Shown piece by piece: positions 1-20,593 of a stretch of DNA of 20,593 bases. How positions within the stretch are numbered: position 1 is the first letter of the stretch; every line of letters begins with the position of its first letter. This stretch comes from a virus, in the IMG/VR virus record IMGVR_UViG_3300042691_046818, positions 1 through 20,593 of that record. One strand, 5' to 3'. Made by a program: the position numbers and the translations under genes. The notes below the pieces were generated by a model. It saw nothing but the letters and a program-made list of their open reading frames with translations, made no database searches and was not told the DNA's origin.

Positions 1-1
1 A

Positions 2-547
2 ACTATTAACGTAATAGGAGATTTTACTTTTGAGTTCTATCTTCAATATCAAAATACAGCTTTTTATGAACCAGCTTCAGAGATTACGCACAATTATTTC
101 ATCTCAGATAACTTCAGTATCACTTACACTGGTCAGCTAACCGCCAGCACTCAAAACCTTACACTCACATTAGTTATTGGCTCTAACACCTATACATTTG
201 ACAACGCCAACCGACTTTTCAGATATCAAAATAGCCGCTACATATTCTTTTCTGTCACGCGAGTAGGGACGAGCATCAAAGTACATTGTGATGGGCAACT
301 GCTGACAGAAAAAGAAGGCTTGGTTACAGATTCCCCAGCAACTAATTTGGCTATTACATCAGCAGAAGTAAGTATGATAGGACGTATTGACTCAATGCGC
401 TTAACAGTAGGCAAAGGAAGATACACTGATGCTATTTATCAACCTCCAGCGATGAGATTTGGTCGGTTAGGTGGGCTTGAAGATGTGGTTCACTCTCAGT
501 CTTTTAATTACTTTCATCGCAGTATTGGTAATCAGATATTCTCTTAA
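2..547 (+). CDS. Partial tail-fibre/adhesin protein, C-terminal LamG-like domain
   Basis: The frame is open from the first bases of the window, so this is the last 181 residues of a longer protein that starts upstream. The visible part is beta-rich and ends with a signature close to RLTVGKGRYT followed by a QPP turn. That matches the C-terminal strand of laminin-G/concanavalin A-like modules, where the pattern is a D-x-(V/M)-R-(I/L)-T-x-G-x-x-R-Y-T stretch and then a proline pair. Such modules are common in phage tail fibres and other virion adhesins and bind glycans or proteins at the host surface. The stop codon lies one base before the start of the next gene, and the last gene of this tail block carries a related module. 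The N-terminal part and any trimerisation or baseplate-anchor region are outside the window. Confidence 0.7.
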   Translation, partial: TINVIGDFTFEFYLQYQNTAFYEPASEITHNYFISDNFSITYTGQLTASTQNLTLTLVIGSNTYTFDNANRLFRYQNSRYIFFSVTRVGTSIKVHCDGQLLTEKEGLVTDSPATNLAITSAEVSMIGRIDSMRLTVGKGRYTDAIYQPPAMRFGRLGGLEDVVHSQSFNYFHRSIGNQIFS

Positions 548-548
548 T

Positions 549-1529
549 ATGAATACAACCATATTTCCTCACACAGTTAACGAGAACAAAGCTGACTACA
601 ACTTAATACCTGTGGGAACTTTGCTATTAGGGTTTGTCTCAAAGAACATCACTACTAAAACATATAAGAACAGTACAGTTATTGTTGGTAATAGCAAGCG
701 TAACCTCAAAGAATTTATTGAATACTCTTCTTACAGTGACGGCTCGATACTTCGTTTCTACAAAGGCAAATTAACAACCATTGTGCCTAATATATATTTA
801 AGAGATATTGAAGGAACAGTAATAGCAGGAATGGGTGATTATCTTGCAGTTACCAGTCTTGGTACTGTCACTAACGTAGGCAGAAAAGAATACTCTGTCA
901 GTCAATTAAGTGATGTGGTCGATTCTATTTCACCTGATAAGTATGCTCTAACCTACAATGGTGCTGTTTGGGCATATGCCCCTGAATCTTCGGCATTAGG
1001 CAGATTTGAAGATGTGACTTTTGCTACAGTACCTTACGGGGTTTTTGTATCCTATTTTGCTCCAGTTAATCAAGGGGGGTTTGGAAATAGCTATAGAATC
1101 CTGCCTTTGAGTATTACTTGGGATAGGTCGCCCATTCTCGGAGGCACATTAAATTGTAATGGCAAGTCTTTACGCAACTTAACTTATTATTCTCAAGATA
1201 TACAAGCTTCGTCTCCTGTATCAACTTTATCTGTAGATACAATTACTTATAATGAAATCAATATAATTTGCGAGGATAATGTCAAAGTACTCTCTTTAGA
1301 TATTATCGTTAACCAAGCTCATCTCAAGTATTTTACGCTTAACCTAATAAATTTTGAAGGGATATTGAGCTTATCTTCATCTCAAGCTGATATTATTTTT
1401 GAAAACGGTTACTTAGCAAAAACAAAAGGAAAAGATAATACCTACACCCTGTTGGTATATAGAGATGATGTTAAACTAAGAGTTATCATGCTACACAAAA
1501 ATCGAAATCTCAATGTATTTACAAACTAA
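549..1529 (+). CDS. Unrecognised beta-rich protein of the tail-fibre block (326 aa)
   Basis: I do not recognise this protein. It is rich in Ser, Thr, Asn, Val, Ile and Tyr in short alternating stretches, as expected for a beta-structured virion protein. I see no catalytic motif, signal peptide or coiled coil. I chose the ATG at 549, one base after the upstream stop (TAA 545-547). The frame is open back to an ATG at 471, which would add 26 residues and a hydrophobic stretch, but that extension lies inside the upstream LamG gene and its coding is explained by that gene. The 3' end overlaps the next gene by 17 bases, which suggests translational coupling in one tail operon. A role as a tail fibre, fibre-tip or baseplate accessory protein is inferred from position only. 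Confidence 0.6.
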   Translation: MNTTIFPHTVNENKADYNLIPVGTLLLGFVSKNITTKTYKNSTVIVGNSKRNLKEFIEYSSYSDGSILRFYKGKLTTIVPNIYLRDIEGTVIAGMGDYLAVTSLGTVTNVGRKEYSVSQLSDVVDSISPDKYALTYNGAVWAYAPESSALGRFEDVTFATVPYGVFVSYFAPVNQGGFGNSYRILPLSITWDRSPILGGTLNCNGKSLRNLTYYSQDIQASSPVSTLSVDTITYNEINIICEDNVKVLSLDIIVNQAHLKYFTLNLINFEGILSLSSSQADIIFENGYLAKTKGKDNTYTLLVYRDDVKLRVIMLHKNRNLNVFTN

Positions 1530-2304
1530 CAGCAAAGAAAGTAATAATACCCCAGTTGAAGTTGAGGTAGTCCAAAGTCCTAGCTTTGACATATTTGGTA
1601 CAACTGTACATCTACCTCCAAACTCTAGTCTTAATACCGCCCTTCTTTTGGCGTTATTAATTCAAAATCTCACTAACCTATTTAAAACAAAACCCGTAGA
1701 ATTTGCTATTGATTTGCTTAGGGGTGGCGACCTAGAGCTACTTGAAAAGCTTGACGATATTGCAGTAGAGTTGAGAGAACTTACTAAGGCTGACAGAGTA
1801 CTTATTGCAGGATTCCATAACGGCAAAAAGAATACAGTGTATCACTGGAAAAGATTATCGGTTCTGGCAGAAGCTACGCGACTAGGTATAGAACCTGTTG
1901 CATCAAAGCTGAAAGATGTGGATACCTATTCTGTTATGACAAAAGCAGATTATGATTTACTATCTACCTTGAAAGCCCACCAACAATACGTTCACACACA
2001 TCAAGATTTACCGACCATTAGCGCTAAACAAAAAAGATTCCTAAGTACCTGTTACATGTTTGGACAATATGTTTGCTTATTAGTCGATGACATCGCAGAC
2101 GCACCTCATGGAATTATCTTTGTTCAATACGATAGCCGTGAAAAATGTGAAGTACAAACAGAGAATGAGGTAGGCTGGAGTGATACTACTAGGGACATCG
2201 CTTACCAGAAAGCAATGGTAGTTAATAACCTTATTTATGACAGAGGCACTTCAAGAATGAATAAAATTTTTGATTTTGTTAAAAAGAAGTTGAGGATTTT
2301 CTAA
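1513..2304 (+). CDS. GAF-like protein with N-terminal hydrophobic segment
   Basis: 263 residues. About residues 40-57 form a hydrophobic stretch (LNTALLLALLIQNLTNLF) that could be a membrane or packing helix. It is followed by an acidic helical linker (about 62-90). The C-terminal part from about residue 92 contains ADRVLIAGFHNG, then a helix (KRLSVLAEATRLGIEP) and later beta strands such as GIIFVQYD. An alcohol-free D-R-x-x-I-x-x-F-H-N-G pattern followed by an S/T-x-x-x-E helix and a strand G-x-x-F-x-x-x-Y resembles GAF-type sensor folds found in uncharacterised phage and bacterial proteins. This assignment rests on pattern memory. The protein overlaps the preceding gene by 17 bases and lies 3 bases before the next, so it is co-expressed with tail genes. 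A lysis, signalling or virion role cannot be decided from the sequence. Confidence 0.5.
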   Translation: MYLQTNSKESNNTPVEVEVVQSPSFDIFGTTVHLPPNSSLNTALLLALLIQNLTNLFKTKPVEFAIDLLRGGDLELLEKLDDIAVELRELTKADRVLIAGFHNGKKNTVYHWKRLSVLAEATRLGIEPVASKLKDVDTYSVMTKADYDLLSTLKAHQQYVHTHQDLPTISAKQKRFLSTCYMFGQYVCLLVDDIADAPHGIIFVQYDSREKCEVQTENEVGWSDTTRDIAYQKAMVVNNLIYDRGTSRMNKIFDFVKKKLRIF

Positions 2305-2307
2305 ACT

Positions 2308-2844
2308 ATGCTTTACAGGAAAGATGGAGGAATTTATAGTCGCGCCTCAGCTATTGTCAACATTCTAACTCAGCTTGATACTGTAGTTCAGCCAGCTTAT
2401 ATTGATGATGAAACTCTAGCTCTTTACGGATTTATTTCTGACCCAAACCTAACTAGTCCTGTCAGTCAAGCTCCGACTCAAGAGCAAAGAAAAACAGCAT
2501 TGTCCAGTGTAGATTGGGTTATTGGTGCTGCACACTTGTCAGAACAAACCAAGGCATCTATTGAAGCATGGAGATGGATAGTTAGAAATTTGCCTCAAAT
2601 AAATTTAAGCGCAGACATTCCGCCATTACCTAAAGTAAAGGGTATAACAGGCTACTTCTCAACCACACTGCTAACTCAGGCAGAGGTTGACCAGATTAAA
2701 AACTATGTAACGCAAGATGAGGATTGGCTCACTTTTCTGCAAATTTGGAAAGAGCTTGGATTTACTTATTCTAAGCAGACTGTAGCTAATTTGTTGACTG
2801 CTTATACTACTGTGACTTTAAATGAAATTATCGGCAGCTTATAA
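2308..2844 (+). CDS. Unrecognised 178-aa protein upstream of the large adhesin
   Basis: No family recognised. The protein is mixed alpha/beta: an N-terminal segment with charged and aromatic residues, a helical centre (about 58-100, containing WVIGAAHL and WRWIVRNLPQ) and a helical C terminus containing DWLTFLQIWKELGF. A GAGG-containing purine stretch (about 2292-2296) lies 12 bases before the ATG. The gene overlaps the start of the 1049-residue adhesin by 23 bases. A small gene translationally coupled to a long fibre gene could be a fibre chaperone or an adaptor linking the fibre to the baseplate. That is position-based inference with no motif support. Confidence 0.55.
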   Translation: MLYRKDGGIYSRASAIVNILTQLDTVVQPAYIDDETLALYGFISDPNLTSPVSQAPTQEQRKTALSSVDWVIGAAHLSEQTKASIEAWRWIVRNLPQINLSADIPPLPKVKGITGYFSTTLLTQAEVDQIKNYVTQDEDWLTFLQIWKELGFTYSKQTVANLLTAYTTVTLNEIIGSL

Positions 2845-5800
2845 TCATTCATTTTCTGCTGGATACTCATACACTAGTCAAGTGTACGATGTTGCAAAGT
2901 TAATTCCAAATTTGAATGGATTATATCTGTGCAATCCAGATTATTTAACCTTCTCTAAAATTGGTGCTAATGGTGCAAACCAAATCCAAACTATTTATAA
3001 TTTGTTGTTTGATGGAAATTTTCTTCAAGCTTCGAGTAATCCACCAACACTTATCTCTAATGATAGTCAGTTCAATGGGCAACCTAGTATAGACTTTGCA
3101 AATAGTGGTAATCAATCTTTAGTATTCAGAAATTCAGTAAAGGTCGGCACATTAATTATTGTTTACCTTACAAGAGTTGCAGGTAGTCTTCCTGTGTACT
3201 CTTTTGGCTCCATAGCTGGTGACCCACCAACATTTTTTGATATCTTTCGTTCTGGGGCTACTTCATTATGGGCAGAGCAGCCTCTTGCAAATAACTCTAT
3301 CTATAATGCAACGTCACGAATCAATAGCCGTTCAGTCTCACCAGATGTCTTTGTTCCCCTCAATAACACCAGAATCCTTAGTGTCACCAGTATAGATAAT
3401 GCTAATCAATATGAGATTGTCTCTGGTTTTGGTGGGAGCGCTACTGGAGGAGGGTTAAGTGTTCGAGGTAAGATAGCTGCAATCATCACAGCAGAGTCCC
3501 CTTGTCCTTTAGACATACTTGCCTCTGTTGAAGCTAAGTTGGCGGAAATATATGTTAACTACAATGGAGTGTCAATATCTTCTCAGCCAACATTCAGAAT
3601 ATTGGTAGATGCTTTTTTTAGTTTTGATTTTGCTACTATTGCTATCGATGAGTTTTTTGATATTGTTAGCTATACCTATGTATCTCCTAGTGGATTAGGA
3701 CTCAGTTTTACAGGCTCAATTTTATCGGGCTATGTACCAGAAGTATTTGATGGTGAGTTTATTATCAGCATTACTAATAGCAATAGTATGGTATCTACAT
3801 TCAGTTTTAGCTTAGAAACTGTTCGTCCTGACCCATTTGTACTAGACTTCCCACAACAATCTAATATAACCGTAGCTCTTTCTCCACTAAAAGATAGTGA
3901 TGACATTCCTTACGGGATTTATGCCGATACATTCGATAATATAGTTAAATGGGAAGACTGCCGACGATTACCTAATAGACCTTTATACATAGCAAGTGAT
4001 ATAGGAACTAATCAAATCACTTACGATGGAGCAACTGCGTCTTTTATAACTAATAGTTCTCTTAATCCCAGAACACTATTAGGAACAACCGTTAACTGCA
4101 AAACATTAATCTGGGTATACAAACAAAAGCAGATTGGGGAACGCTTTATGGCTAATGGCTTCCCAGATATATTTGCTAACGGTGTTCTTTGGACTACTGC
4201 TACCAGTGAGGAAATATTTGGTACAACAGCTATAACTCAACTTAATACAAAGGTTAATAAGGTTGCGGTAAATGCCTTCAATTATCGATTCCCAAATGAA
4301 TATGGGGCAATTATTACTGCAACTAATTCTGGAACATCGATACCTTTTAGCGGTCTTACTTCTCAATTAAAAGGAGAACTACTGTATTTTATCGGTTGGT
4401 CGGTTGCATTAGGCGATGATGAACTTGCAACGGCTACTCACCTCTTAGCTAATAAGTTTTTTGATTCAACACTATTACTCTTCAGTACTGAGACAGAGTT
4501 CAGATACACTGAAAACGTTATTGTTAACCTTAACAAAAAGGTTACTGAAATAGCTGGTAACACCATAGAATACGAGATACTAGTTAACCACTACTCAGCA
4601 ACGATAACTGGGAACGACCTCACATTTACTTGTCCAACCGATGACTTCATCAGCTTTACTATTCGTGCATACACTTCAACCGAATCACTCACATTCAGCT
4701 TTAACGTCAGCATCACCTTACTTACTAATCAACTTTATATCGACCTGAAAGGGTTGCTTAACACCTTTAGCTCATTTTTCATCGTGACCCCTGATGTCGT
4801 CACTTTATCTAGTGGCAATATACTTCAACTTGATGAGTATCGAACTAATGGACAAGAGCTTCTTGGAGTAAATGCAGTCAACTACATCACACCTACACAA
4901 TTAGATGGACTACCCGCAGCTAGATTTAATATAGATGGCTCTTCACGGCTAGATTTCGGCACACCTAGCAGTAGTAGTGGATACTGCTTTATCATTGCTT
5001 ACATACGCAAAGCAGGGCAAACTGGCATAGCTTTCTTGTTTGGGCAGAATAGTAACAACATCTTTAACTCTGGCAATGATGGGGAACTTCTAGCAACAGA
5101 TTTCTATGGAGATGTCTGGGCGAACGGGGCAGAAAGAGAGAGAGATTATGTGCTGCCTGAAGAATCTCTTAGTGTGGTGATATTCAATTCAACTGACCTA
5201 GTAACCATCAACTCTATTGCCAAAGACAGGGTGTTCGAGGACAGAAGTGTAAAAGGTAGTGTAGCCATGTTTTGCACTGTTGACTATAAAATTGAGGCAG
5301 ACTTGTTTGCAGTAATAGAAAGTAGCATTCGAGACTACTATCAGCCAGCCAAAATAGTTACATTATTGAACTTTGACAGCAGCATCGTAGATGGAAGTTA
5401 TCGCGCCAAGACTTTGACCAGCAATATCTCGGTACTCGACACAGTTAACAAGAAGTTTGGAGCCACCAGCTTCCCAATTGCTAAAAACAGCGTACCAGCT
5501 TATGTGCAAGTACCCAATGACTCAGACTATTCTTTTTTGTCGGAGGATTTTACCATTGCAGGTTGGCTATTGGCTGACCGTGCTACTACTGGAGCCGAAG
5601 TTATTAACATTTATACACAACAAGGATTATCACTATTCTTTTCTGCCGACCGATTGTACTTAGGTCGCTCATTAGTACTAGGACTTGCTTTGTTTTCTGT
5701 CGCCTTACCTATATCCTCTACTGTATTCAATCATATCGCTTTGACGAAACAGAATGGAACACTGAGACTGCATGTTGGTGGAGTTCGAGTGTACGAAGCT

Positions 5801-5971
5801 GCTGATGATTACGAGTACCGTGACTGGAATACTGATGCACAAATAGGACAAGCCACTGCAATAACTACAAGTGGCTTGAACATCAATTTAGATTCGTTTG
5901 TGGTGTACAGGAGGATTTCGCTTTACAACGGCGCAAGTTTTGCCCCACCTAGTAGTGCTTACACAGTTTAG
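2822..5971 (+). CDS. Large modular tail-fibre/adhesin with lectin-like and Ig-like modules
   Basis: 1049 residues with a clear alternating design. Module 1 (about 28-245), module 2 (about 336-550) and module 3 (about 637-841) each look like concanavalin A/LamG-type jelly rolls. They share an N-terminal loop with an I/L-D-G or F-N-G-x-P-(A/S) turn before a D/N-F strand (FNGQPSIDF in module 1, LDGLPAARFNIDG in module 3). Between them lie two roughly 80-residue Ig/cadherin-like spacers (about 252-335 and 557-636), ending in similar strands (TFSFSLETV and LTFSFNVSIT). The C terminus (about 842-1049) is a canonical LamG module containing FTIAGWLL, FNHIALTKQNGTLRLHVGG and LNINLDSFVVYR. No peptidase or lyase motif is seen. 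It overlaps the upstream gene by 23 bases and its stop codon interlocks with the stop of the - strand gene. It is probably a receptor-binding fibre or virion-surface adhesin. Confidence 0.75.
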   Translation: MKLSAAYNHSFSAGYSYTSQVYDVAKLIPNLNGLYLCNPDYLTFSKIGANGANQIQTIYNLLFDGNFLQASSNPPTLISNDSQFNGQPSIDFANSGNQSLVFRNSVKVGTLIIVYLTRVAGSLPVYSFGSIAGDPPTFFDIFRSGATSLWAEQPLANNSIYNATSRINSRSVSPDVFVPLNNTRILSVTSIDNANQYEIVSGFGGSATGGGLSVRGKIAAIITAESPCPLDILASVEAKLAEIYVNYNGVSISSQPTFRILVDAFFSFDFATIAIDEFFDIVSYTYVSPSGLGLSFTGSILSGYVPEVFDGEFIISITNSNSMVSTFSFSLETVRPDPFVLDFPQQSNITVALSPLKDSDDIPYGIYADTFDNIVKWEDCRRLPNRPLYIASDIGTNQITYDGATASFITNSSLNPRTLLGTTVNCKTLIWVYKQKQIGERFMANGFPDIFANGVLWTTATSEEIFGTTAITQLNTKVNKVAVNAFNYRFPNEYGAIITATNSGTSIPFSGLTSQLKGELLYFIGWSVALGDDELATATHLLANKFFDSTLLLFSTETEFRYTENVIVNLNKKVTEIAGNTIEYEILVNHYSATITGNDLTFTCPTDDFISFTIRAYTSTESLTFSFNVSITLLTNQLYIDLKGLLNTFSSFFIVTPDVVTLSSGNILQLDEYRTNGQELLGVNAVNYITPTQLDGLPAARFNIDGSSRLDFGTPSSSSGYCFIIAYIRKAGQTGIAFLFGQNSNNIFNSGNDGELLATDFYGDVWANGAERERDYVLPEESLSVVIFNSTDLVTINSIAKDRVFEDRSVKGSVAMFCTVDYKIEADLFAVIESSIRDYYQPAKIVTLLNFDSSIVDGSYRAKTLTSNISVLDTVNKKFGATSFPIAKNSVPAYVQVPNDSDYSFLSEDFTIAGWLLADRATTGAEVINIYTQQGLSLFFSADRLYLGRSLVLGLALFSVALPISSTVFNHIALTKQNGTLRLHVGGVRVYEAADDYEYRDWNTDAQIGQATAITTSGLNINLDSFVVYRRISLYNGASFAPPSSAYTV

Positions 5972-6563: not shown

Positions 6564-8159
6564 ATGCGAAAGCAGTCCAATAGTTTCAAAGAATTTAAGA
6601 CACAGGAGTACTTCAAAGCATTGGCGGAATCGGTCTTGCTGGTTCGTAGAGCAATCAATAGTAGCTTTGCTGAGTCTACGTTTGTCGATGAGCTAGCTAA
6701 GTGGATTGCTAAGTCCAATGCCAGTATATATGAAGTGCCAGACATGCTCTTTAATAAGTTTGCAGAAAAGAATGTCAAAGATATTACCGACAAATACTTC
6801 CTAAAAATTCAGGTCGAGTTTGGTAAGGTGCTAACTACTAACTTTGAGTCGATGATTAAGCTGGCTATTCGACATCAGATGTACGATTACTTGTACGAAT
6901 ACGGGGATGATGACATTCGTAAGTACTTCGATACCCAAGTTATAAATGAAGACACCAAGGAACTGTCGGCTGAGTTCGCGGCTGGCGATGACACAATTAG
7001 AGAGCTTGGCAATAATAGAAGATATGGATTAACTAAAAGGGCAGTTGAGAATTTACTTAACCAACGAGCAGCACAGACCAATATAAATGATGTAGCCAAG
7101 GTACAAGAGCGTGTCAAAGTAGCCGATGAAGTGTCGCGCAATGTCTACATGCTTAATAAGATAAGTGATAGTACCAACAGTGCCAAGGCTGCCATGATGA
7201 ACTTCCTGTATGGCAGCAATGATGAGAAGCAAAACTTCCTATCGAGTAACTATTTAGGTAAGCGGCGCAGAGTCTTGCAATCGTCATACTCAACTGAAAG
7301 TAACAAACAAATCCGTAAAGCTGTTGCATTATTCCTTGCCTCCAATCGAGAGTACATTACTAACCTCAAGTCTCAACGTAATAAGTATGAGTATGACCTT
7401 GAACTACTAAAGGTAAGAGTCCGTAACATTATCAACAAAGACCAACAAGGCTTGCAAGGGGCATTCAAACAGCAATCACCAGATGTAATTGTAAAGACCG
7501 AGTTGGCAATTGCATACAACTTCGGTAAGGTAGCGGCATTTGGAGGCAAAGCTGATAGGTACAAAAGGTTCCGATGGAATGTCGATAGGGAGTACGCACT
7601 CATTAGTAGATATAAGCGACTAGCAAGGGGCAGCGATAGAACCGACCCTGTACCATGCGAAGACTGCGAAATTCAAGATGGTCTTGAGTATTACTTGTTT
7701 GAGATAATAGAAAATCAAAGAGATGGTGGTGATGTTATCAACTATAAAGCTGGAAATCCTACCACATGGCGAAATCCAGCTAAACCTTCTATTCCATACC
7801 ACCCCATGTGCGCCTGTTATTACAGCCTTGTGGAAGATGTTGACGAAGAAGATTTTGACCCCAAGAAACAGCCTCCAAACAGACCTCCACAAGGAGGCTT
7901 AGGTACACCGATTAAGATTGCTCTCGCTGCTACTGCATTTGTTGCTGGGCTTGCCTTGTTAGCTTCTAATAAGTCATTAGGTAATGCAACTGCCAAGGCT
8001 ATCTACTCTACATTCTCTGCACCTCGACTACCTCCGCCAGATGTAGCTAATTTACCGCGCATAGTAGAGTCAGGATTGGATGCTCTTAACTTTGTTGGGG
8101 CAGAAAAAAATATTGTAAATAAGGTGGCTAAAAGTGTTCAAATCATCAATCGCACTTAG
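6564..8159 (+). CDS. Minor head / head morphogenesis protein (Mu F, SPP1 gp7-like)
   Basis: 531 residues. The N-terminal half is helical and charged. The C-terminal third carries the family signature: a TELAIAYNFGK helix (about 312-322), a W-containing strand (RFRWNVD, about 337), the pair C365-x-x-C368 followed by a D-G turn (DGLEYY), and then HP-x-C-x-C (H413, C416, C418). This Cys/His set is typical of Mu gpF/SPP1 gp7 minor head proteins. They associate with the portal inside the procapsid and help DNA packaging or ejection. After a proline-rich linker there is an unusual hydrophobic helix (about 448-469, IKIALAATAFVAGLALLA), not part of the usual domain. A mini-gene starts inside its 3' end. 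Portal and terminase are not seen nearby. Confidence 0.8.
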   Translation: MRKQSNSFKEFKTQEYFKALAESVLLVRRAINSSFAESTFVDELAKWIAKSNASIYEVPDMLFNKFAEKNVKDITDKYFLKIQVEFGKVLTTNFESMIKLAIRHQMYDYLYEYGDDDIRKYFDTQVINEDTKELSAEFAAGDDTIRELGNNRRYGLTKRAVENLLNQRAAQTNINDVAKVQERVKVADEVSRNVYMLNKISDSTNSAKAAMMNFLYGSNDEKQNFLSSNYLGKRRRVLQSSYSTESNKQIRKAVALFLASNREYITNLKSQRNKYEYDLELLKVRVRNIINKDQQGLQGAFKQQSPDVIVKTELAIAYNFGKVAAFGGKADRYKRFRWNVDREYALISRYKRLARGSDRTDPVPCEDCEIQDGLEYYLFEIIENQRDGGDVINYKAGNPTTWRNPAKPSIPYHPMCACYYSLVEDVDEEDFDPKKQPPNRPPQGGLGTPIKIALAATAFVAGLALLASNKSLGNATAKAIYSTFSAPRLPPPDVANLPRIVESGLDALNFVGAEKNIVNKVAKSVQIINRT

Positions 8160-10173: not shown

Positions 10174-11501
10174 GTGAATTTGCTATCAGACAAAACCCTA
10201 GAGGAGGAAAGTCTGCCCTCATTTACAATGCTGGAATGCGGCAGAAAAGAAGATTACAAGCTACTGCCAATCCAGTAACCCCTGCAATGACTGATGCGGA
10301 AAAATTTCTTGAACAGAAGAAATTACAAGCTGAAGGTAAAGCTGTCTATAATAGGCGATTACGTGAGCTAGACCCTCCTACTCCTGTTCCTCAACCTACA
10401 CCTGAAGAGATTGTCGCTAATAAAGTCCAACAAAAAGTAGGTATCAAGCAAGGTGTAGCAGACGCAGAAACCCAAAGACTTCGTAATAAGTTTTCAGGTG
10501 GTGGTGGAATTCCTTTAGTTACCCCCGCAGTCAACCATGTCGCTAATAAATTGATTGACAGGGGATTTGGTGAGAGTGCTATTTACGGTACTCTTGGTGG
10601 ATTAACTTTAGCCCCTATTGCCGCAGGTGCAGCTATATATCAAAACAACAAAAATAAGGAGGCTGAGCAAGAAAAACAAGCTCAAGTTCAAGCCCATCGC
10701 GATAAAGTAGCAGAAATCATAGCGAAAAGAAATTTACTTATGGAACAAAGACAAGCAGCACAACAACAATCTGCCCAACCTAAAATACCTTATAACTTCT
10801 TTAGTGCTGCCCCTCTTGTAGCCCCAGCAAATTTTGCGTTCCCTAAAATTGGAGTACGTAGTCCGTTTTTCATCAAGAAAGAAAAAGCACTTCCACTGGC
10901 TGCTGTTGGCGGAACTTTAGTTGCTGGCTATAGTCTGCTGTCCAAACTTAACAAACAAAGAGCGCTCGATGCTTATAAAGTAAATAGCCTTAAAGATAAG
11001 AATGCCCAAGATTTCGCGGCTAATTATTTTGATAGCCCTCAGTACCACGCTGATAACTTGATTCGTGAAGCTGCTAATATTACTGGGAATCCTTTACTTC
11101 AAGGCATCACAGATAATCCTCTTGATAGACTGACTCCAGCACAGCAACAACAACAAGTCAAGAATAAAGGTACTGCTCGATATTCTAGAGGTGCAAATAA
11201 GACTGCAAATTTCTTTGACCCATTCATTGCACCTAGTTTAGCTATTGGTAGTGCAGCTTATGGTATTTATAACAAGAAGAAAGCCGCAGATGAACAGAGT
11301 GAAGTTTTTCAAGCTCAGAAGTTAGCTGCTCTTGACGGAATTAAAGATAAACAACTTCGTCGAGGATTGCTTAACAAAGCACAAAATAGATTTATTGATG
11401 ATGACTCTAAGAACCGTATTATTGACTCTGCTTTCAGAGGAGATATACAAGGTGCTTTGCGGACAGGATTAAAACGTGCTAATTGGGAGGCAATACAATA
11501 A
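10167..11501 (+). CDS. Glycine-zipper modular internal head protein A (polyprotein-like)
   Basis: 444 residues, family not recognised. Three modules can be drawn, split by Ala-Asn-Phe at 221-223 and 347-349. Each contains a glycine/alanine-rich hydrophobic segment flanked by basic residues and a Gln/Lys/Glu-rich helix: about 137-160 (IYGTLGGLTLAPIAAGAAIY), about 249-268 (LPLAAVGGTLVAGYSLL) and about 354-370 (IAPSLAIGSAAYGIYN). The N-terminal third is basic and Pro/Gln-rich. GAGGAA (10151-10156) precedes the ATG by 10 bases, and the gene overlaps the protease by 7 bases. Placement between protease and scaffold suggests an internal head or ejection protein processed during maturation. Processing is inferred from the motif and is not shown. 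Confidence 0.65.
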   Translation: MLSEFAIRQNPRGGKSALIYNAGMRQKRRLQATANPVTPAMTDAEKFLEQKKLQAEGKAVYNRRLRELDPPTPVPQPTPEEIVANKVQQKVGIKQGVADAETQRLRNKFSGGGGIPLVTPAVNHVANKLIDRGFGESAIYGTLGGLTLAPIAAGAAIYQNNKNKEAEQEKQAQVQAHRDKVAEIIAKRNLLMEQRQAAQQQSAQPKIPYNFFSAAPLVAPANFAFPKIGVRSPFFIKKEKALPLAAVGGTLVAGYSLLSKLNKQRALDAYKVNSLKDKNAQDFAANYFDSPQYHADNLIREAANITGNPLLQGITDNPLDRLTPAQQQQQVKNKGTARYSRGANKTANFFDPFIAPSLAIGSAAYGIYNKKKAADEQSEVFQAQKLAALDGIKDKQLRRGLLNKAQNRFIDDDSKNRIIDSAFRGDIQGALRTGLKRANWEAIQ

Positions 11502-11506
11502 AACAT

Positions 11507-11956
11507 ATGGCTAAATTTTCTCGTAATCGCAATTCTACTTATGTGCAATTCAAACGTGCATATAATAAGGCAGTTGCAAATTTCTTCGACCCTTCAGCAT
11601 TAGTTAGTGAAGGTGTAGGTGATTACCTTGGTACAACTCTTGGTGGTCTTGCTGGTAGTGAAGTAGGTCGGGCAGCAGCAGCGCAAACTAAGGCTAGAGC
11701 ATTGAGACGTAGTGCCGACCCAAATGAACGGCACAACCAAACATTAGCTCAACAACTAGAGGCTGCTAGGCAAATTGAAGACCCTAGACAACAAGCTGCG
11801 GCAATCGAAAAAGCCCAATCTCGCGCTGACTATGAATCTGCCAAATTACAACGGTTTGCTGGACTTAAGGGGCTGAGTCAGCAAGCAGGTTATACTGGGT
11901 TAGGAGCTACAACAGGTCTACTCAGTAATACCTTAGCCCATCACTGGAGTAACTAA
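11507..11956 (+). CDS. Glycine-zipper internal head protein B, single module
   Basis: 149 residues from ATG 11507. The frame is open from a TTG at 11483, but that would overlap the preceding gene and lacks support. GGGAGG (11485-11490) lies 16 bases before the ATG, a long gap. The first 23 residues are basic (MAKFSRNRNSTYVQFKRAYN), followed by Ala-Asn-Phe at 24-26 and FDP. A glycine-rich hydrophobic segment (about 37-60, YLGTTLGGLAGSEVGRAAAA) comes next, then a Gln/Glu/Arg helix (about 65-115) and a second small glycine-rich segment near the C terminus. It looks like one unit of the modular neighbours, with the basic leader resembling a removable capsid-targeting peptide. The family is unknown. 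It joins the next gene by a TAATG overlap. Confidence 0.6.
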   Translation: MAKFSRNRNSTYVQFKRAYNKAVANFFDPSALVSEGVGDYLGTTLGGLAGSEVGRAAAAQTKARALRRSADPNERHNQTLAQQLEAARQIEDPRQQAAAIEKAQSRADYESAKLQRFAGLKGLSQQAGYTGLGATTGLLSNTLAHHWSN

Positions 11957-13632
11957 TGACTAAAAAATCGCTATTGCAAAAAAAAGCTAATTTTGCCCAA
12001 CCATCTCTTCTTTCTGCTCTCCCTAACGCAGTGAAGGTTGGGGCTGGGGTTGGTGCAGGACTTGGACTGTTACAAGGTTCTGGTATTCTTGAATCAGATT
12101 CCGAAAAAAAAGCTACTAATGTCGGTAATAGACTTGGTAAAGTACTTACTAGTACTACTGTAGGTGCAGGACTAGGTGCTGGAGTTGGTTATGGCGCTAA
12201 CCGTTATAATAAAACTATAATAGAACCTCAAAAAGAGTTACAAAGACGACAGGCTGTTGTAGCTGAACATGAGTCTGCCAATCCTAGAGGTATTCGTAAA
12301 GCTGTTAAGGTAGTTAAAGATACTGGTAAAGCTGTTGGTGATGGAATTCAATCTGTTAAACAAGAAGTTCAAAGAATTACTAATCCTAATCTCGAACAAC
12401 GTGAAGCAAGGATGGCTGAAGACCTTCAACGACAAACTGGTAATGGGCAACCCTCACTTCTAGACAGAGCTGCTGGTAAGGCACAACAAGATATTGAAAC
12501 AACTAAGCAATTTTTCGGCAATGTGTTTCGACGCAAGCCAACAGGAGAAACTAATCAAGGATTTAATGGACAAACAATTAATATGAGCAAATCAATTCGC
12601 AAAGCAGCTAATTTCCAAGACCCAGCTACAATTCAACGCTTAATCCAAAAAGGCAGTACATATATTCCTCAAGATAATACTGGAGTTGTCAGTCTTGAAT
12701 CTGCAATTAAATTAAAAGGGCAGAAAAAGAAAAAACTAAATGAACCTAAAATCCCTGCTAGTATGAATGTTAAAGAAATTAATTCAATGATTGAATCGGG
12801 CAAGCCAACTGGCAAATATTTTTCTAAAGGTATTCGCAAGTCTGCAAGCTTCCTAAAAAGCCAACAACAAGCTGAGTTTGGTATTGGTGACCAAATCAAC
12901 AGCGCATTAACTTCCGCAGGTAAACTTATTACCCAACCTGCGGCTAAGGCAGTTCGTAAGGCTGCTGTTCAAGTTGGTGGGGGTGATGGTGCTTCCATTT
13001 TAGGTAATAGAATTGCTGCTAAAATCCCTTTTGTAAATCAAATGAATCATGGAGCTGCTAAAGTTGCGGCTGGTGGGTATAAGGCTTTGACTGGAGCTGC
13101 TAATGTACTTGATACTGATAAGGCTGCTAGAATTGCGGCTCTTGGCGTTGGTGGTACTGCACTTGCTGGTGGAGGTCTTCTTGCAGCTAAGTTAGCACAA
13201 AAGAAACAAGAAGATGAAGCTCGTTATAGTAAAAATATTCGCAAATCTGCATCGTTTGGAGTAATTCCTAGTGGGTTAATTCAAGGCGCACAAAAAGCTG
13301 CTGTTGGCACTGGAAAACGCTTTATGAATCTGTCTCCTCAAATCAATCCCGCTAATGTTGGAACTGCTGTTGGTGCTGGACTAGGCGCTCTTGAAGGTTC
13401 AGGTATCAATGAGACAGAAGAAGAACGCAGAGCTACTGGATTAGTTGGTCGCGCCACTAAAGTACTCGGATTAGGCGCTGCTGGAGGTACTGTAGGTCGT
13501 GGTGTCGGTTCTGTGGCTGGTGCTGGTGTAAATCGTTACCAAGCTAATCAACGTCTACAAAATCGTAGACAAACAAATCCTGACGCATTCAAAAATCCTA
13601 GCAAGATTCCTCAGCAAATCGACATAGAATAA
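11956..13632 (+). CDS. Glycine-zipper modular internal head protein C (polyprotein-like)
   Basis: 558 residues, family not recognised. Candidate joints are Ala-Asn-Phe at 11-13 and 218-220 and Ala-Ser-Phe at 297-299 and 432-434, giving five pieces of about 10, 207, 79, 135 and 127 residues. Glycine-zipper stretches lie at about 26-44, 66-82, 394-415, 466-482 and 502-525. The block around 26-86 and that around 466-532 are recognisable repeats of each other. The piece 218-296 has no such stretch and is Lys/Ser-rich instead. Residues before each joint are basic (SIRK, GIRK, NIRK). An internal in-frame Met at 210 begins a segment that looks like the N termini of neighbouring genes, suggesting fusion of formerly separate genes. 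The C terminus is followed by a terminator hairpin. Confidence 0.65.
   Translation: MTKKSLLQKKANFAQPSLLSALPNAVKVGAGVGAGLGLLQGSGILESDSEKKATNVGNRLGKVLTSTTVGAGLGAGVGYGANRYNKTIIEPQKELQRRQAVVAEHESANPRGIRKAVKVVKDTGKAVGDGIQSVKQEVQRITNPNLEQREARMAEDLQRQTGNGQPSLLDRAAGKAQQDIETTKQFFGNVFRRKPTGETNQGFNGQTINMSKSIRKAANFQDPATIQRLIQKGSTYIPQDNTGVVSLESAIKLKGQKKKKLNEPKIPASMNVKEINSMIESGKPTGKYFSKGIRKSASFLKSQQQAEFGIGDQINSALTSAGKLITQPAAKAVRKAAVQVGGGDGASILGNRIAAKIPFVNQMNHGAAKVAAGGYKALTGAANVLDTDKAARIAALGVGGTALAGGGLLAAKLAQKKQEDEARYSKNIRKSASFGVIPSGLIQGAQKAAVGTGKRFMNLSPQINPANVGTAVGAGLGALEGSGINETEEERRATGLVGRATKVLGLGAAGGTVGRGVGSVAGAGVNRYQANQRLQNRRQTNPDAFKNPSKIPQQIDIE
12031..13551 (+). repeat. Duplicated glycine-zipper module inside protein C
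   Basis: Copy 1 (12031-12213) and copy 2 (13351-13551) encode the same order of elements. First is a zipper of the type VGAGLG-(L/A)-L-(Q/E)-GSGI. Next comes an acidic then basic helix with S-(D)-x-E-x-(K/R)-(K/R)-A-T-x-x-(G)-x-(L)-x-(K)-V-L, then a second zipper (TVGAGLGAGVG against TVGRGVGSVAGAG), and finally a closing N-R-Y. The nucleotide sequences have diverged, so this is an old internal duplication maintained at protein level. Confidence 0.65.
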
Positions 13633-13654
13633 CTCTTTACGCCAAAAACCCATA

Positions 13655-13695
13655 AATAATGCCATGCTGAGAAATTAGTGTGGCATTATTGTTTT
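13655..13695 (+). terminator. Rho-independent-type terminator before the scaffold gene
   Basis: The arms AATAATGCCA (13655-13664) and TGGCATTATT (13681-13690) are perfectly complementary. The stem extends inward by two G-U and two Watson-Crick pairs to about 14 bp with an 8-base loop, and is followed by GTTTT. It lies between the end of protein C and the scaffold ATG, so it would end the protease to protein C transcript or attenuate read-through into the scaffold-capsid cassette. Confidence 0.7.
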
Positions 13696-13721
13696 AATCC
13701 TAAAAAACGAAAATAATAAAA

Positions 13722-14606
13722 ATGGATGAAGAACAACAAGATTTAGGCGCTCAGGACGCTGGTATGGAAGGAGAAGGTCAAGATGTGGCTGAACTCAATC
13801 CAACCAATGCTTTTGGCGAATTACTTCTAGACTTAATTAAAATCCAGTTCCAAGAGGACTATTCTGCTGGTATTCAAGCTCTAGTTCAGGCAACTGGATT
13901 AAGCGAAGAAGACGTTGTTGGATACATTAGCGGTGAAAATATCGTTGATGATGTTGAAACTCTTGAAGCAATGATTTCTGCATTCCCTGATGCTACCGAA
14001 GAAGACTTAGATACTCTTATTGATGTTGCTGATGGAGTATTGGAGCAAGACCGTCAAGCTCTAGAAGCACAATACGAAAATGAAGGCGCTGAAGGAGGCG
14101 CAGAAGAACCTATGACTGAAGACGCTGCTAATTACGCTGCGGCATACAACCCAGCAATTCAAGCTAATTTCAATAAGACAGTAGTTAGCGAAATCCAAAA
14201 ACTTCGTGCAGAAAAAGAAGCTCTTGAAGCCCAATTCTCTCAAGCTAACTTTGAAGCACAATTATCTCAAGCGTTGACTGATTTGAACGCTCGCATTAGT
14301 CAAGACGTTGTTGACGGTGTTATCACCCCTGCAATGAAGGAAGCTCTTATCGGTAACTTCTCTGACCCTCGCCAACGAGTTGCTCAGTTTACTGGTATCG
14401 CTCAAACTAACGGTGCGCGTGACTTACAAGAACAACTCAATATGTCAGAGTTTGCCTACAGCTTACTTCGTAATGTTGCAAATGTTACCCAGTTCACTGA
14501 TTTTAGCGTTAGTGCTGAAGAAGTTGCGACTGCTAATTTCTCATCTAGCCTTGAAGAAGCTGCTAAGGGCGACCTTATAGCTATGGGTCTGGATTTCGGA
14601 CTATAA
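13722..14606 (+). CDS. Capsid scaffold protein
   Basis: 294 residues. It is strongly acidic, with an N-terminal DEEQQDLGAQDAG stretch, helical segments rich in Glu, Ala, Gln and Leu, and a central coiled coil (about 151-190, VVSEIQKLRAEKEALEAQFS). This composition, together with its place directly upstream of the decoration and major capsid genes and downstream of the protease, is typical of a phage scaffold. Ala-Asn-Phe occurs three times (148-150, 175-177, 271-273), and GNFSDP, VAQF and EAQF occur as relatives. In this model these would be cut by the protease so that fragments can leave the maturing head. No clear ribosome site precedes the ATG. The stop codon is embedded in the ribosome site of the next gene. 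Confidence 0.7.
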   Translation: MDEEQQDLGAQDAGMEGEGQDVAELNPTNAFGELLLDLIKIQFQEDYSAGIQALVQATGLSEEDVVGYISGENIVDDVETLEAMISAFPDATEEDLDTLIDVADGVLEQDRQALEAQYENEGAEGGAEEPMTEDAANYAAAYNPAIQANFNKTVVSEIQKLRAEKEALEAQFSQANFEAQLSQALTDLNARISQDVVDGVITPAMKEALIGNFSDPRQRVAQFTGIAQTNGARDLQEQLNMSEFAYSLLRNVANVTQFTDFSVSAEEVATANFSSSLEEAAKGDLIAMGLDFGL

Positions 14607-14621
14607 GGAGCAAAAAACACA

Positions 14622-15530: not shown

Positions 15531-15549
15531 CGGAGAACATACAAAAAAA

Positions 15550-16785
15550 ATGGCATATATTGAAAATTTCTTAAAAGAAGGACGCGCTGCTAAGGCTGCC
15601 GACCTCGTTGTAAACAACACTCTCCGTCAGTTGAAGGAACGCTCCAAGGTTCTCAATACTTACGTTCCCTTGGTTGAGAAGACTGGTCGTGATTGGCTTG
15701 CGTATATTTCGACAACCGTTGACCCCATTGCCAGTTTGGTTGCCACAGGACAAGACTATCCTGAAGCTAAAAAGGGCGACTTCTCCAAGATTCAAGCTCG
15801 TAACTACAAAGCTGCGATTGCTTATCACTGGGACGAAGACACTCAATGGCGTATGGCTGAGGTTTCGGAACTTGCTAAGATTCGCAACATCACCATTCAG
15901 AACATTCAAGTTTCGGAAGGTAAAGTTCAACTCGGTCAAGATAACGAACTTGCCAAGAATATCTTTGGTACTCTTGCTTCGCTTGTTCGCGGTCACATCA
16001 ACTTGATTGACTACTTGGCTTGGCAGACATTGCAGACTGGTAAGATGCAGTACACTGACCAACGTACAGGCTTGAAGGCAGACCTCGACTGGACAAAGGC
16101 AATCGGCATCCGCGCCAACCACTTCCCCTTTCCTATCTATCAAACTGACTTCAATGGCACTGAGACTGTTGACTCTCTCAAGCGCGACTGGACTCAACAC
16201 GAAACTGCTGACCCTCTGCAAGACCTTGCAGATATGCACACTCAGTACAAGTACACCAATGGTTTCTCTGCTGACGAAATCGCAATTTCTGAGCGCTTAC
16301 TCTTAAACATTGCTCGTTGTAAGTCTGTTAAGGAAGCTGTGGTTGCTGCTAACGTTCTTGGTAATGTTATCACTGGTACTCCTTCGATTGACCAAATCAA
16401 CGAAGTAATGAGTCGTCGTTTCTTGCCCAAGTTTGTTCTAGAAGATGGACAAGTAGAGCTTTCAGACGCAAATGGTCAGTCGGCTCCTACTCGCTTGTTG
16501 GATGAAGGTACTGTTGTATTCTTGTCTCGTCAAGGTCAGTACAATCGTATCTTGGGTGGAACTATTGAGAACAATCAACGGGCAGGAATTTTCCAAAGAA
16601 CTTGGCAGAAGACCCCAATTTTAGATATCAGCGAGTCAGTTTCGATGCAACTCATAGCTGCCCCAACCATTGCCAAATGCGGAATGGCACGCAAATGTGC
16701 AAAAAATGTGAATATTGCGTCGTCTATTTCTCTTGCAGACTTCTTGACTTTCGATAGTTCTCGCGGTCAAACTGTTATTTCCTAA
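15550..16785 (+). CDS. Major capsid protein (lambda gpE / HK97-fold type)
   Basis: 411 residues from ATG 15550, preceded by GGAG (15532-15535) with a long 14-base gap. The frame is open to 15490, but that would overlap the upstream gene. The N-terminal helix (about 1-35) is followed by a DWLAYISTTVDPIAS stretch. The centre has WQTLQTGKMQY followed by LKADLDW, the spine-helix and following strand pattern of gpE-type capsid proteins (L-x-T-G-K then D/E-x-D-(W/F)). The late part reads LLDEGTVVFLSRQG, an N-loop, FQRTWQKTPILDISESVSMQLIAAPTI, matching the end of the same family. It assembles the icosahedral shell. Codon use is richer in C-ending codons than the neighbouring genes, as expected for a highly expressed protein. 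A terminator follows. Confidence 0.85.
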   Translation: MAYIENFLKEGRAAKAADLVVNNTLRQLKERSKVLNTYVPLVEKTGRDWLAYISTTVDPIASLVATGQDYPEAKKGDFSKIQARNYKAAIAYHWDEDTQWRMAEVSELAKIRNITIQNIQVSEGKVQLGQDNELAKNIFGTLASLVRGHINLIDYLAWQTLQTGKMQYTDQRTGLKADLDWTKAIGIRANHFPFPIYQTDFNGTETVDSLKRDWTQHETADPLQDLADMHTQYKYTNGFSADEIAISERLLLNIARCKSVKEAVVAANVLGNVITGTPSIDQINEVMSRRFLPKFVLEDGQVELSDANGQSAPTRLLDEGTVVFLSRQGQYNRILGGTIENNQRAGIFQRTWQKTPILDISESVSMQLIAAPTIAKCGMARKCAKNVNIASSISLADFLTFDSSRGQTVIS

Positions 16786-16809
16786 TCTTAGTTGAAGTAA
16801 CTAAAAATT

Positions 16810-16848: not shown

Positions 16849-16860
16849 GTTATTATAAGT

Positions 16861-16941
16861 ATGTGGATACCGATAGCTACGGGAAAAGACTTCTGGAGTC
16901 CTGCCACTTTTCTAGTTTCCAGATTAACCAGTAAAAATTAA
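16861..16941 (+). CDS. Possible 26-aa leader ORF before the homing endonuclease
   Basis: ATG 16861 opens a 26-codon frame (MWIPIATGKDFWSPATFLVS then RLTSKN) whose TAA overlaps the endonuclease ATG in a TAATG arrangement. There is no Shine-Dalgarno. The stretch also contains an inverted repeat, TCTGGA (16892-16897) and TCCAGA (16918-16923). It could be a leader peptide coupling translation, a remnant of an interrupted gene, or chance. Confidence 0.2.
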   Translation: MWIPIATGKDFWSPATFLVSRLTSKN

Positions 16942-17741
16942 TGACAAAAATTCAAGGTATTTATAAAATTACCAATATAGTAAATGGTAAATTTTATATA
17001 GGCAGCAGCGTAAATTTAAAAAATAGGTTGGCAAATCATTTTTCTAAGCTTAGAAACAATAAGCATTCCAATATTTATTTGCAAAGAGCTTTTATAGTTC
17101 ATGGAGAAGCTAACTTTAAAGCTGAAATTGTAGAAGTGACTGATAATCTACACCAATCTGAATTACTAGATATAGAACAGAAATATCTTGATGATATAGA
17201 GGATTGGAATACCTCCTATAATCTAACAAAAAATACCAAAGCTTTTGGGACTATATATGCAGATGAAACTGAAAAAAGAGCTAAAAAATCTGCCAGAGTG
17301 ATAGGGGATAACAACCCTTTTTACGGTAAGACTCATTCACAAGAAAACAAAATGCTTATGACCGAATCGAAAAGAAAACGAGGAGGTAGTGCCTATAGAA
17401 AATCAGATAGTGCAAGATGGGAAACAAGTATTAAGGTAGATAAAAAATCAATTTATCTAGGGTCTTACGAAACTGAGAAGGAAGCTTGTTATGTAAGAGT
17501 CTTAGCTGAAAAATTTTACTGGGACAAAGATGGTTCTGTAAAAGAAGAATTAGATAAGGCTCAACTGAGCAGCCCCAAAAAATCCCGAAAACTGCCGTCT
17601 GGTGTGTATAAAAAAGGTAAATACGACAAGTATGAAGCTCGATTAGTTATAAACAAACAAAAAATCTATATCGGTACGTTTGATACACCAGAACTTGCTT
17701 ATACAGCTAGGCAAGAAGCTCTCCAATCTCTGCTATCATAA
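16941..17741 (+). CDS. GIY-YIG homing endonuclease with NUMOD3 and two AP2-like domains
   Basis: 266 residues. Residues 6-21 hold GIYKITN and YIGSS, the GIY and YIG strands. R29 (NLKNRL) is the candidate catalytic arginine and E79 in DIEQKYL the metal-binding glutamate, with N94 after. Residues about 120-140 (GDNNPFYGKTHS) are a NUMOD3 DNA-binding motif. Two AP2-like three-strand-plus-helix units follow (about 151-195 and 219-262), each with a (W/Y)-E-(A/T)-x-(L/I)-x-V/I and I-Y-(L/I)-G-(S/T)-(Y/F)-(E/D)-T core. The enzyme makes a break or nick at its target so the gene spreads by repair. It sits free-standing right after the capsid gene, between terminator and connector genes. The base composition is more AT-rich than the neighbours, fitting recent insertion. 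All key residues seem intact. Confidence 0.9.
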   Translation: MTKIQGIYKITNIVNGKFYIGSSVNLKNRLANHFSKLRNNKHSNIYLQRAFIVHGEANFKAEIVEVTDNLHQSELLDIEQKYLDDIEDWNTSYNLTKNTKAFGTIYADETEKRAKKSARVIGDNNPFYGKTHSQENKMLMTESKRKRGGSAYRKSDSARWETSIKVDKKSIYLGSYETEKEACYVRVLAEKFYWDKDGSVKEELDKAQLSSPKKSRKLPSGVYKKGKYDKYEARLVINKQKIYIGTFDTPELAYTARQEALQSLLS

Positions 17742-17763
17742 ATACATCTACACGTATATAAAT

Positions 17764-18291: not shown

Positions 18292-18310
18292 TCCTCTAGC
18301 AGGACAGAAA

Positions 18311-18802: not shown

Positions 18803-18805
18803 ATT

Positions 18806-19510: not shown

Positions 19511-19993
19511 ATGTTTATTGAACGCCCCAGCTATCCTGCAAATCATAAGTTTCCCGATATAGACCTCCAAACTATAGCTGCATATATCCGCAATGAAGTT
19601 AACATCACGTTTAATACAGCTTTAGGGGGTAAGAAAGCTATTTCGAGTTATACAGTAGACAACACTAACAAGTTGCCTCTAGGAACTAATATCTACCCAC
19701 TCCTGAAGATATTCCGTAATGAGGAGTCTTCACTTTTTCAAATTGGTGATGGAGATATAGTTAGCCTCGTTATTGTTTATGTATTATCCTACAGCGCAAA
19801 AGATACTGCTTCAGGGCTAACTTTCCATGTCGCTAAAGAAATCAAGCGCATTCTTCAAAATAGTGAAGTTGACGATGTTATCCCTTTTACTATTAACAAA
19901 GAACAAGGTATCACAATAAAATATGAATCCGCCACAACTACGGATATTATTTACGATTATGCCAAAATAAATTGCTCAGTATTCGCCTACTAG
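19511..19993 (+). CDS. Putative tail terminator/neck protein
   Basis: 160 residues, mixed alpha/beta. An N-terminal helix (DLQTIAAYIRNEVNITFNTAL) leads into strands (NIYPLLKIFRNEES), a hydrophobic strand (IVSLVIVYVLSYS), a helix (HVAKEIKRILQNS) and final strands. A helix, strand, long beta hairpin, helix order and a size of 130-200 residues are usual for tail terminators (lambda gpU, T4 gp15-like), and the place just before the tail-type gene fits. No sequence motif decides it. The gene starts immediately after the preceding stop, so it is probably translated by coupling. Confidence 0.5.
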   Translation: MFIERPSYPANHKFPDIDLQTIAAYIRNEVNITFNTALGGKKAISSYTVDNTNKLPLGTNIYPLLKIFRNEESSLFQIGDGDIVSLVIVYVLSYSAKDTASGLTFHVAKEIKRILQNSEVDDVIPFTINKEQGITIKYESATTTDIIYDYAKINCSVFAY

Positions 19994-20002
19994 CATCTCT
20001 GT

Positions 20003-20031
20003 TATAATTGAATAAAATCTTATGCATAAGA
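20003..20031 (+). promoter_or_regulatory. TATAAT element plus 14-bp palindrome before the last gene
   Basis: The 49-base gap before the last gene contains a perfect TATAAT (20003-20008) and, ten bases on, a perfect palindrome TCTTATGCATAAGA (20018-20031). No -35 box is seen at 16-18 bases upstream. The palindrome would lie just after a transcription start set by this element, so it could be an operator or a 5' hairpin in the message. The evidence is positional only. Confidence 0.35.
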
Positions 20032-20042
20032 ACAAAAACTAA

Positions 20043-20593
20043 ATGTCAAATATCCAAGTCGCTTTAGGCGTAGCTAACCCTAAAGTTCTTACAAATCTAG
20101 ACCTCGGCACTAACCCAGTCAAAACTATCGGCGACTCCGAGTATATTCCTGTCACCATTGCCTTAGCTCAGGCTGATATCACTGCATCTGTCATCCCTAT
20201 TGCTACCCAATCCAAGTTGAAAGCTGAGGTTGCTGGAGCTTTTGATGGTGTACGTGTAGGTGACTTTATTACGGCTGTTGCTACAGGTTCATTGACTGCA
20301 AAGAGTAATGTAACCGTTGCAGATGCATACCTTGCTTCGGGATTGAAAGAGATTACTTTCGACGAAACATATGACAATACCAATTTAGGTGTTAAGTCTG
20401 GTGATGCAATTACTGTCGCCTCTGCTGGGACTGGCATCCCTAGCAACACTATTGTTACTAAAGTCGATTATGTCAATCGTAAAATCTATGTAGATAAAGC
20501 TCTTACTGAGAGCAAAGTTGCTGACCTTACTGTCACACCTAAAATTCGCGTTACAGCCGTTCGCAAGTCTACTGCAACCTCTAATCCTAACGA
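20043..20593 (+). CDS. Partial beta-rich virion protein, probably tail tube or tail-associated
   Basis: The first 183 residues are visible and the frame runs off the window. It opens MSNIQVALGVANPKVLTNLD and soon becomes beta-rich. Residues about 55-160 contain a G-D-(A/F)-I-T pattern twice (GDFITAVATGS and GDAITVASAGTGIPSNT) followed by strands such as RKIYVDKAL. The G-x-G-I-P-x-x-T-x-V turn is frequent in phage virion beta domains. The gene order after a tail-terminator-like gene suggests a tail sheath, tube or related protein. A head-fibre protein is possible. No good Shine-Dalgarno is seen, and the palindrome lies 12 bases before the ATG. Confidence 0.55.
   Translation, partial: MSNIQVALGVANPKVLTNLDLGTNPVKTIGDSEYIPVTIALAQADITASVIPIATQSKLKAEVAGAFDGVRVGDFITAVATGSLTAKSNVTVADAYLASGLKEITFDETYDNTNLGVKSGDAITVASAGTGIPSNTIVTKVDYVNRKIYVDKALTESKVADLTVTPKIRVTAVRKSTATSNPN

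Follow-up and report, generated by a model that had tools for sequence, protein, structure and literature searches.

The 20,593-base virus record IMGVR_UViG_3300042691_046818, which was analysed over its whole length (hereafter the window), and the group of approximately 140-kb Pseudanabaena phages to which its sequence assigns it contain no copy of five palindromic words, GATC, GGCC, CCGG, CCWGG and GGWCC (hereafter the core words). The explanation that we prefer, with a probability of about 0.8, is that palindromic Type II restriction in many hosts has led to the elimination of these sites. GATC was counted zero times in the window, against 74.2 expected from base composition (GC 40.2%), 59.6 from a maximal-order Markov model and 59.9 from a symmetrised second-order model, and synonymous codon shuffling within the 18 called genes (18,423 nt) gave 46.3 ± 4.7 copies, with a minimum of 36 in 100 shuffles. 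The first-pass annotation, which had read a total loss of GATC by eye and ascribed it to strong counter-selection by host restriction of that site, is thus borne out by exact count as to the loss, and restriction is supported as its cause. The loss is much wider than GATC alone, since GGCC (26.3 expected), CCGG (15.5), CCWGG (24.5) and GGWCC (16.6) are also absent, and the window is free of CCNGG and GGNCC throughout. Other words occur near expectation, such as AGCT (159 observed, 143 expected), GCGC (41 and 36), GTAC (76 and 77) and TCGA (55 and 65), and TGCA is also normal. The 35 non-nested restriction specificities found depleted in the group (see below) have 16 sites in the window, compared with about 308 scaled from the pooled expectation; these are RCATGY (6), GGTNACC (3), CATATG (3), GAATTC (2), TACGTA (1) and GACN6GTC (1), and the other 29 specificities have none.

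The affiliation of the window was examined with its major capsid protein (15547–16785, + strand; PHROG 29, E = 3e-19 for a longer open reading frame (ORF) from 15490). By tblastn, this protein is 77.6% and 77.3% identical to its counterparts in PA-SR01 and Pam2, and these two phages (137,012 and 142,856 bp) are the only matches at E 1e-5 among 50,697 phage records, a set from which records very close to the window were possibly excluded. The gene order of the window is also like that of PA-SR01 (MT234670) and Pam2 (ON014754) as judged by position and length. The DNA is therefore that of a phage, as first annotated, and its virus infects filamentous cyanobacteria; PA-SR01 itself is reported to be long-tailed and lytic (PMC10286775). 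The window is the whole virus record, and it is likely a fragment of a larger phage genome. Absence of the cyanobacterial repeat HIP1 (GCGATCGC), which had also been taken as a mark of phage origin, was rejected as proof because it is uninformative in 20 kb: the window contains no HIP1, and no copy of its reversed control sequence either.

The absence extends across the group. A capsid scan of IMG/VR gave 26 relatives with 77–99% identity, three of them within records of about 145 kb that were read whole, and a profile search with eight capsid sequences gave 27 loci, all of the same group and two of them new, with no distant outgroup. Five genomes of about 140 kb each (PA-SR01, Pam2, G001, G003 and G005; 719 kb in total) contain none of the core words, against about 4,976 expected, namely 2159 for GATC, 947 for GGCC, 564 for CCGG, 753 for CCWGG and 553 for GGWCC. 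All five words are likewise absent from 28 of 28 IMG/VR loci (269,278 bases, some of which lie inside the five genomes), the two added by the profile search included. AGCT, GCGC, TGCA and TCGA are near expectation in the five genomes, and GATATC, ATCGAT, AGCGCT and TCTAGA reach or exceed it. Several 6-base palindromes are almost eliminated, as seen for CYCGRG (0 of 255 expected), GRCGYC (0 of 194), GGYRCC (2 of 311), TTCGAA (2 of 305), TGCGCA (1 of 151) and CMGCKG (5 of 378). The avoided sets vary by member, with 0, 1, 11, 1 and 1 RCATGY and 2, 4, 18, 8 and 12 ATGCAT in PA-SR01, Pam2, G001, G003 and G005, respectively, all scattered along the genomes. The window shares the five zeros with PA-SR01 and Pam2 but differs from them in RCATGY, which it keeps at 6 of 14 expected, compared with 0 of 80 and 1 of 90. 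Such variation fits a site-by-site pressure, as if the enzymes met by each member differ.

The group avoids the sites of restriction enzymes and not palindromes as such. Using the enzyme labels of Bio.Restriction in Biopython 1.87 (1,088 enzymes, 618 sites), 160 palindromic catalogue sites had a pooled expectation of at least 25 in the five genomes, and their observed/expected ratios were bimodal: 73 lay below 0.15 and 77 above 0.5, with only 10 between. The 73 depleted sites collapse to 35 non-nested specificities, 31 of which occur at no more than 10% of expectation, and all five core words lie below the 10% level that defines site elimination. Hence the part of the first-pass proposal that named restriction stands, while its limitation to GATC does not. 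The same was seen for gapped palindromes, of which 551 were testable and 25 have a catalogued enzyme. The 11 most depleted are every one a known enzyme site (Tth111I, Bsu36I, PshAI, PflMI, BglI, DraIII, DrdI, BstEII, BstXI, OliI and AhdI). Of the 25 with an enzyme, 12 fell below 25% of expectation, compared with 3 of the 526 that lack one (p = 1.5e-15, odds ratio 161); the same cut-off gave 0 of 25 and 1 of 543 when nine control phages were pooled. Catalogued non-palindromic sites are mostly kept, with 0 of 40 5-base sites below 0.7 and 7 of 118 6-base sites below 0.25, which indicates palindromic enzymes. This palindromic bias fits the survey of Rusinov et al. (2018), where only orthodox Type II sites are described as commonly avoided (PMC6286503). 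Some depleted words have no catalogued enzyme, such as CAGN5CTG (38 of 175 expected), ACCN4GGT (30 of 110) and GCGAGC (9 of 225), and these may point to undescribed cyanobacterial specificities.

Selection against the core words is continuing, as their zeros are kept between diverged members. Of the 91,495 bases aligned between PA-SR01 and Pam2, 11,544 differ. If placed at random, these differences would generate about 460 core words, and Pam2 has none. For 231 of the real differences, the change would hypothetically make a core word by itself on the PA-SR01 background, so that a further difference must accompany each of them in Pam2. Seven control words together showed no deficit in this comparison (1,171 vs 1,033), although ACGT alone was low (121 vs 145). 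A fixation argument would translate 0 of about 4,976 into a scaled selection coefficient of more than about 7 per site, a rough value given the shared ancestry of the genomes.

This selection reaches the proteins. Enumeration of the genetic code indicated that the five core words forbid exactly three dipeptides, Gly-Pro, Pro-Gly and Trp-Pro, together with six further tripeptides in which Met or Trp is followed by Asp and then by Pro, His or Gln. The ORFs called in the five genomes total 190,355 residues; calling was by length and ORFs were truncated at piece borders, which leaves out or shortens a few proteins. None of these ORFs encodes Gly-Pro (437 expected), Pro-Gly (437) or Trp-Pro (80), and no other dipeptide with an expectation above 15 is zero. 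Each of the six tripeptides is also absent (1.5–5.2 expected), and the proteins of the window contain neither Gly-Pro nor Pro-Gly (16 expected each). These absences are a logical result of the DNA zeros and not an independent proof. They indicate that selection against the sites outweighed the freedom to use the three pairs. A comparison with homologues for replaced Gly-Pro and Pro-Gly was rejected: it gave 12 aligned positions, which are necessarily changed, few and non-independent. In an alignment of the ribonucleotide reductase (RNR) alpha chain, offered here as an anecdote, solved class I chains (E. coli) carry VPGL where Pam2 has LKAK; an alignment of ThyX was uninformative.

A mechanism can be proposed on this basis. 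Many hosts in the community would carry orthodox palindromic Type II enzymes of different specificities and restrict at the avoided sites, and the lineage would escape by carrying almost no targets. Even a single site would then be a risk in some host. Matches to the DNA methyltransferase families PF02086, PF00145 and PF01555 were found in 0 of 6 genomes of the group, other methyltransferase families not being searched, whereas the same search gave a cytosine methyltransferase match in Nostoc phage N-1 and an N6/N4 match in Pam4. This points to target removal in place of methylation by those families, with selection presumably removing each new site. Removal would proceed mostly through synonymous codons, and amino acids would change where the code leaves no alternative (Gly-Pro, Pro-Gly, Trp-Pro, and Met/Trp-Asp-Pro/His/Gln). 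Bloom-forming cyanobacteria are reported to possess very many restriction systems (PMC8262939), and a 97-genome study lists predicted GATC-cutting enzymes in 10 genomes (PMC4390886).

Several observations weigh against this explanation, or against its simplest form. The strongest concerns Pam1, Pam3, Pam4 and Pam5, which were isolated on the host strain of Pam2, Pseudanabaena mucicola Chao 1806 (PMC9382816). In the parts counted, GATC occurs in them at 58 of 107, 470 of 450, 75 of 143 and 178 of 174 expected, respectively, and GATC, GGCC and CCGG are present at 0.5–1.2 of expectation. That strain alone therefore cannot impose the purge unless these phages are otherwise protected, and restriction by the actual host, as first annotated, draws no support from them. 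One possibility is that GATC, GGCC and CCGG are not restricted by Chao 1806 and that other hosts exerted the pressure. The other is that the co-host phages are otherwise protected; labels in the Pam3 record name base-modification genes, and Pam4 has the methyltransferase match given above. Several of the words avoided by the group are nevertheless scarce in Pam1 (GGWCC 6 of 46, CYCGRG 1 of 15, GGYRCC 4 of 45), and ACGCGT and GTCGAC are low in all four. The co-host phages also have private gaps, such as AGCT in Pam4 (0 of 49) and GTAC in the counted 30 kb of Pam1 (0 of 31). We favour a broad or changing host pool over evolutionary time, rather than one strain, as the source of pressure. A broad present pool is a poor fit with the host-range test reported for PA-SR01, which lysed 1 strain only (PMC10286775).

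Surveys of enzyme families fall on both sides of the balance: they show relevant enzymes in cyanobacteria, but they were sparse and covered cyanobacteria at large, with no genome known to be Pseudanabaena. The GGNCC family RE_TdeIII was detected in 6 of 18 genomes reached through the transposon-associated protein TnpB and in 5 of 96 cyanobacterial genomes, with one genome common to both, and it also matched 1 of 14 control genomes. The BsoBI/AvaI family matched 2 of 96 cyanobacterial genomes and 0 of 14 controls, and LlaMI (0 of 18) and HindIII (0 of 96) matched no control either and are uninformative. The TnpB gene of PA-SR01 contains no core word, and the 21 host loci compared, out of 80, average about 3.7; this comparison is weak and no proof of purging after transfer, as 1 of the 21 host copies also has none. 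Controls narrow the distance further: enzyme sites also make up 4 of the 8 gapped palindromes that are most depleted in the control phages, at 0.33–0.41, and in a size-matched comparison the first 50 kb of PA-SR01 has 30 of 103 sites below 0.15, compared with 26 of 119 in Pam4. Single genomes of the group have 56 of 144 to 64 of 150 sites below this value, and further controls gave 20 of 123 (Pam3), 19 of 102 (PaV-LD), 15 of 87 (Pam1), 16 of 99 (N-1), 13 of 111 (phage K), 6 of 89 (Pam5) and 0 of 110 (Ma-LMM01). Partial avoidance is thus common among phages, and the group is set apart by completeness and breadth.

Other causes of the zeros were weighed against restriction. It could be that methylation rather than cutting is avoided, and that sites were dropped because progeny bearing host-specific methyl marks would be cut by methyl-dependent nucleases of the next host. 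GATC methyltransferases are described as widespread among cyanobacteria, and methyltransferases for GGCC have been described from Anabaena PCC 7120 and Synechocystis (PMC4390886, PMC6560206). One may reason that mixed communities punish methylated and unmethylated sites alike, which would make removal the only state safe everywhere. Many of the avoided 6-base and gapped sites are however catalogued cutting specificities, and we regard avoidance of methylation as improbable, though the best placed of these alternatives. A little less probable is self-avoidance, in which sequence-specific nucleases of the phage shred the host DNA and its own genome has lost those sites. The group does carry several annotated nucleases, including homing and other endonucleases and one Pam2 gene labelled a restriction endonuclease, and many cyanobacterial genomes have frequent copies of HIP1, a repeat that includes GATC (PMC4390886). 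About 35 palindromic specificities, gapped ones included, would nevertheless need about as many enzymes, and the avoided sets vary between members.

A mutation bias or an effect of mismatch repair could in principle remove words without restriction, by routes such as deamination of methylated cytosines or cleavage at GATC during repair. In favour of this, an orphan methyltransferase of cyanobacteria acts on GATC (PMC4390886), and Synechocystis has a methyltransferase that acts on GGCC (PMC6560206). Zeros need purging, as new words keep arising at the rate estimated above for PA-SR01 and Pam2, and no single mutational process predicts a list with A/T-rich and gapped palindromes that match enzymes; this cause is accordingly judged slightly less probable again. 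Selection on GATC only by mismatch repair was also considered and rejected. An artefact of assembly, library preparation or misreading had nothing in its favour and is hardly credible, as the zeros recur in two isolates (Singapore and China) and 28 IMG/VR loci, within long ORFs, and are mirrored in the proteins.

Elimination of restriction sites can be compared with known systems. It is described as an anti-restriction strategy of staphylococcal phages, in Rosenblumvirus (PMC6346686). The full genome of Staphylococcus phage K is like the group in GATC (0 of 376 expected), GGNCC (1 of 81), Gly-Pro (0 of 66) and Trp-Pro (0 of 10), but it allows Pro-Gly (49 of 66), keeps CCGG (71 of 73) and CCNGG (82 of 102), and has the far smaller share of depleted palindromic sites given above. 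Nostoc phage N-1 resembles the group in GGNCC (0 of 54), in Gly-Pro (0 of 42), in the absence of Trp-Pro, and in zero CYCGRG, CMGCKG, RCATGY and TTCGAA, whereas it keeps GATC (264 of 324), CCGG (163 of 123) and Pro-Gly (52 of 42) and has the cytosine methyltransferase. AGATCT (0 of 30) and GGATCC (0 of 8) are missing from N-1 although GATC is common there. Rusinov et al. (2018) give elimination (ratio <0.1) in 7.5% of cases, called a likely underestimate, and the main text of that survey does not once use the terms “amino acid”, “codon” or “cyano” (PMC6286503).

The other genes characterised in the window lie on the + strand. A 1049-residue protein (2822–5971), whose counterpart by position and length, unaligned, is the Pam2_07 “adaptor”, lacks Gly-Pro and Pro-Gly, and so do a 531-residue protein (6564–8159), the counterpart by the same measures of a same-length PA-SR01 gene, and a 558-residue protein with a repeated short peptide pattern (11956–13632). 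The gene at 9139–10173 encodes a probable head maturation protease by a weak match (PHROG 976, E = 8e-4), and the PA-SR01 gene at its place is annotated “Mu-like prophage I protein” (MT234670). Beside it, a peptide pattern around [A/S]-[N/S/Q]-F recurs in several neighbouring proteins (9139–14606), for example RGANKTANFFDP, AYNKAVANFFDP, KSIRKAANFQDP, KGIRKSASF and KNIRKSASF, and could be the cleavage site of this protease. A GIY-YIG/HNH homing endonuclease gene (16941–17741; PHROG 314, E = 2.8e-24) directly follows the capsid gene, where none is annotated in PA-SR01 or Pam2; it also contains no core word. In the Pam2 record, two genes (Pam2_03 and Pam2_54) are labelled botulinum neurotoxins. 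These look like over-called remote hits, as Pam2_03 sits among the head genes, two positions beyond the terminase gene. The “collagen-like” protein of Pam2 and its PA-SR01 counterpart have short stretches with 73–75% identity over about 30 residues to a Ma-LMM01 protein, whose stretch has one Gly-Pro; the Pam2 and PA-SR01 proteins have none.

Site avoidance is already established, and avoidance in cyanophages may have been described long ago; Bancroft and Smith (1988) reportedly dealt with restriction sites in Anabaena/Nostoc cyanophages. The apparent novelty lies in how many specificities are avoided (35, with no copy of the five core words) and in the consequent loss of amino-acid pairs. No report of such breadth for this group, or of restriction-forced dipeptide loss, was found in searches of an open-access library, and neither the PA-SR01 paper (PMC10286775) nor the Pam2 paper (PMC9382816) uses the word “restriction” in its main text. 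In the survey and the examples compared here, avoidance is usually partial or concerns few enzymes; in this group it is essentially complete for the five core words and strong for about 35 specificities across genomes of about 140 kb, and the lost amino-acid pairs set a lower bound on the selective strength of restriction. It is puzzling that, of the five phages that grow on a single Pseudanabaena strain, just one is fully purged. Restriction is an obstacle to DNA transfer in cyanobacterial genetics, which gives natural DNA free of so many targets a practical interest. Surviving phages might be used for reading the restriction repertoire of a community and for predicting unknown enzymes. Restriction has probably edited the proteome of this group, and the genome would then record in negative the Type II enzymes that the lineage has met, so that depleted words without an enzyme may mark cyanobacterial specificities still to be described.

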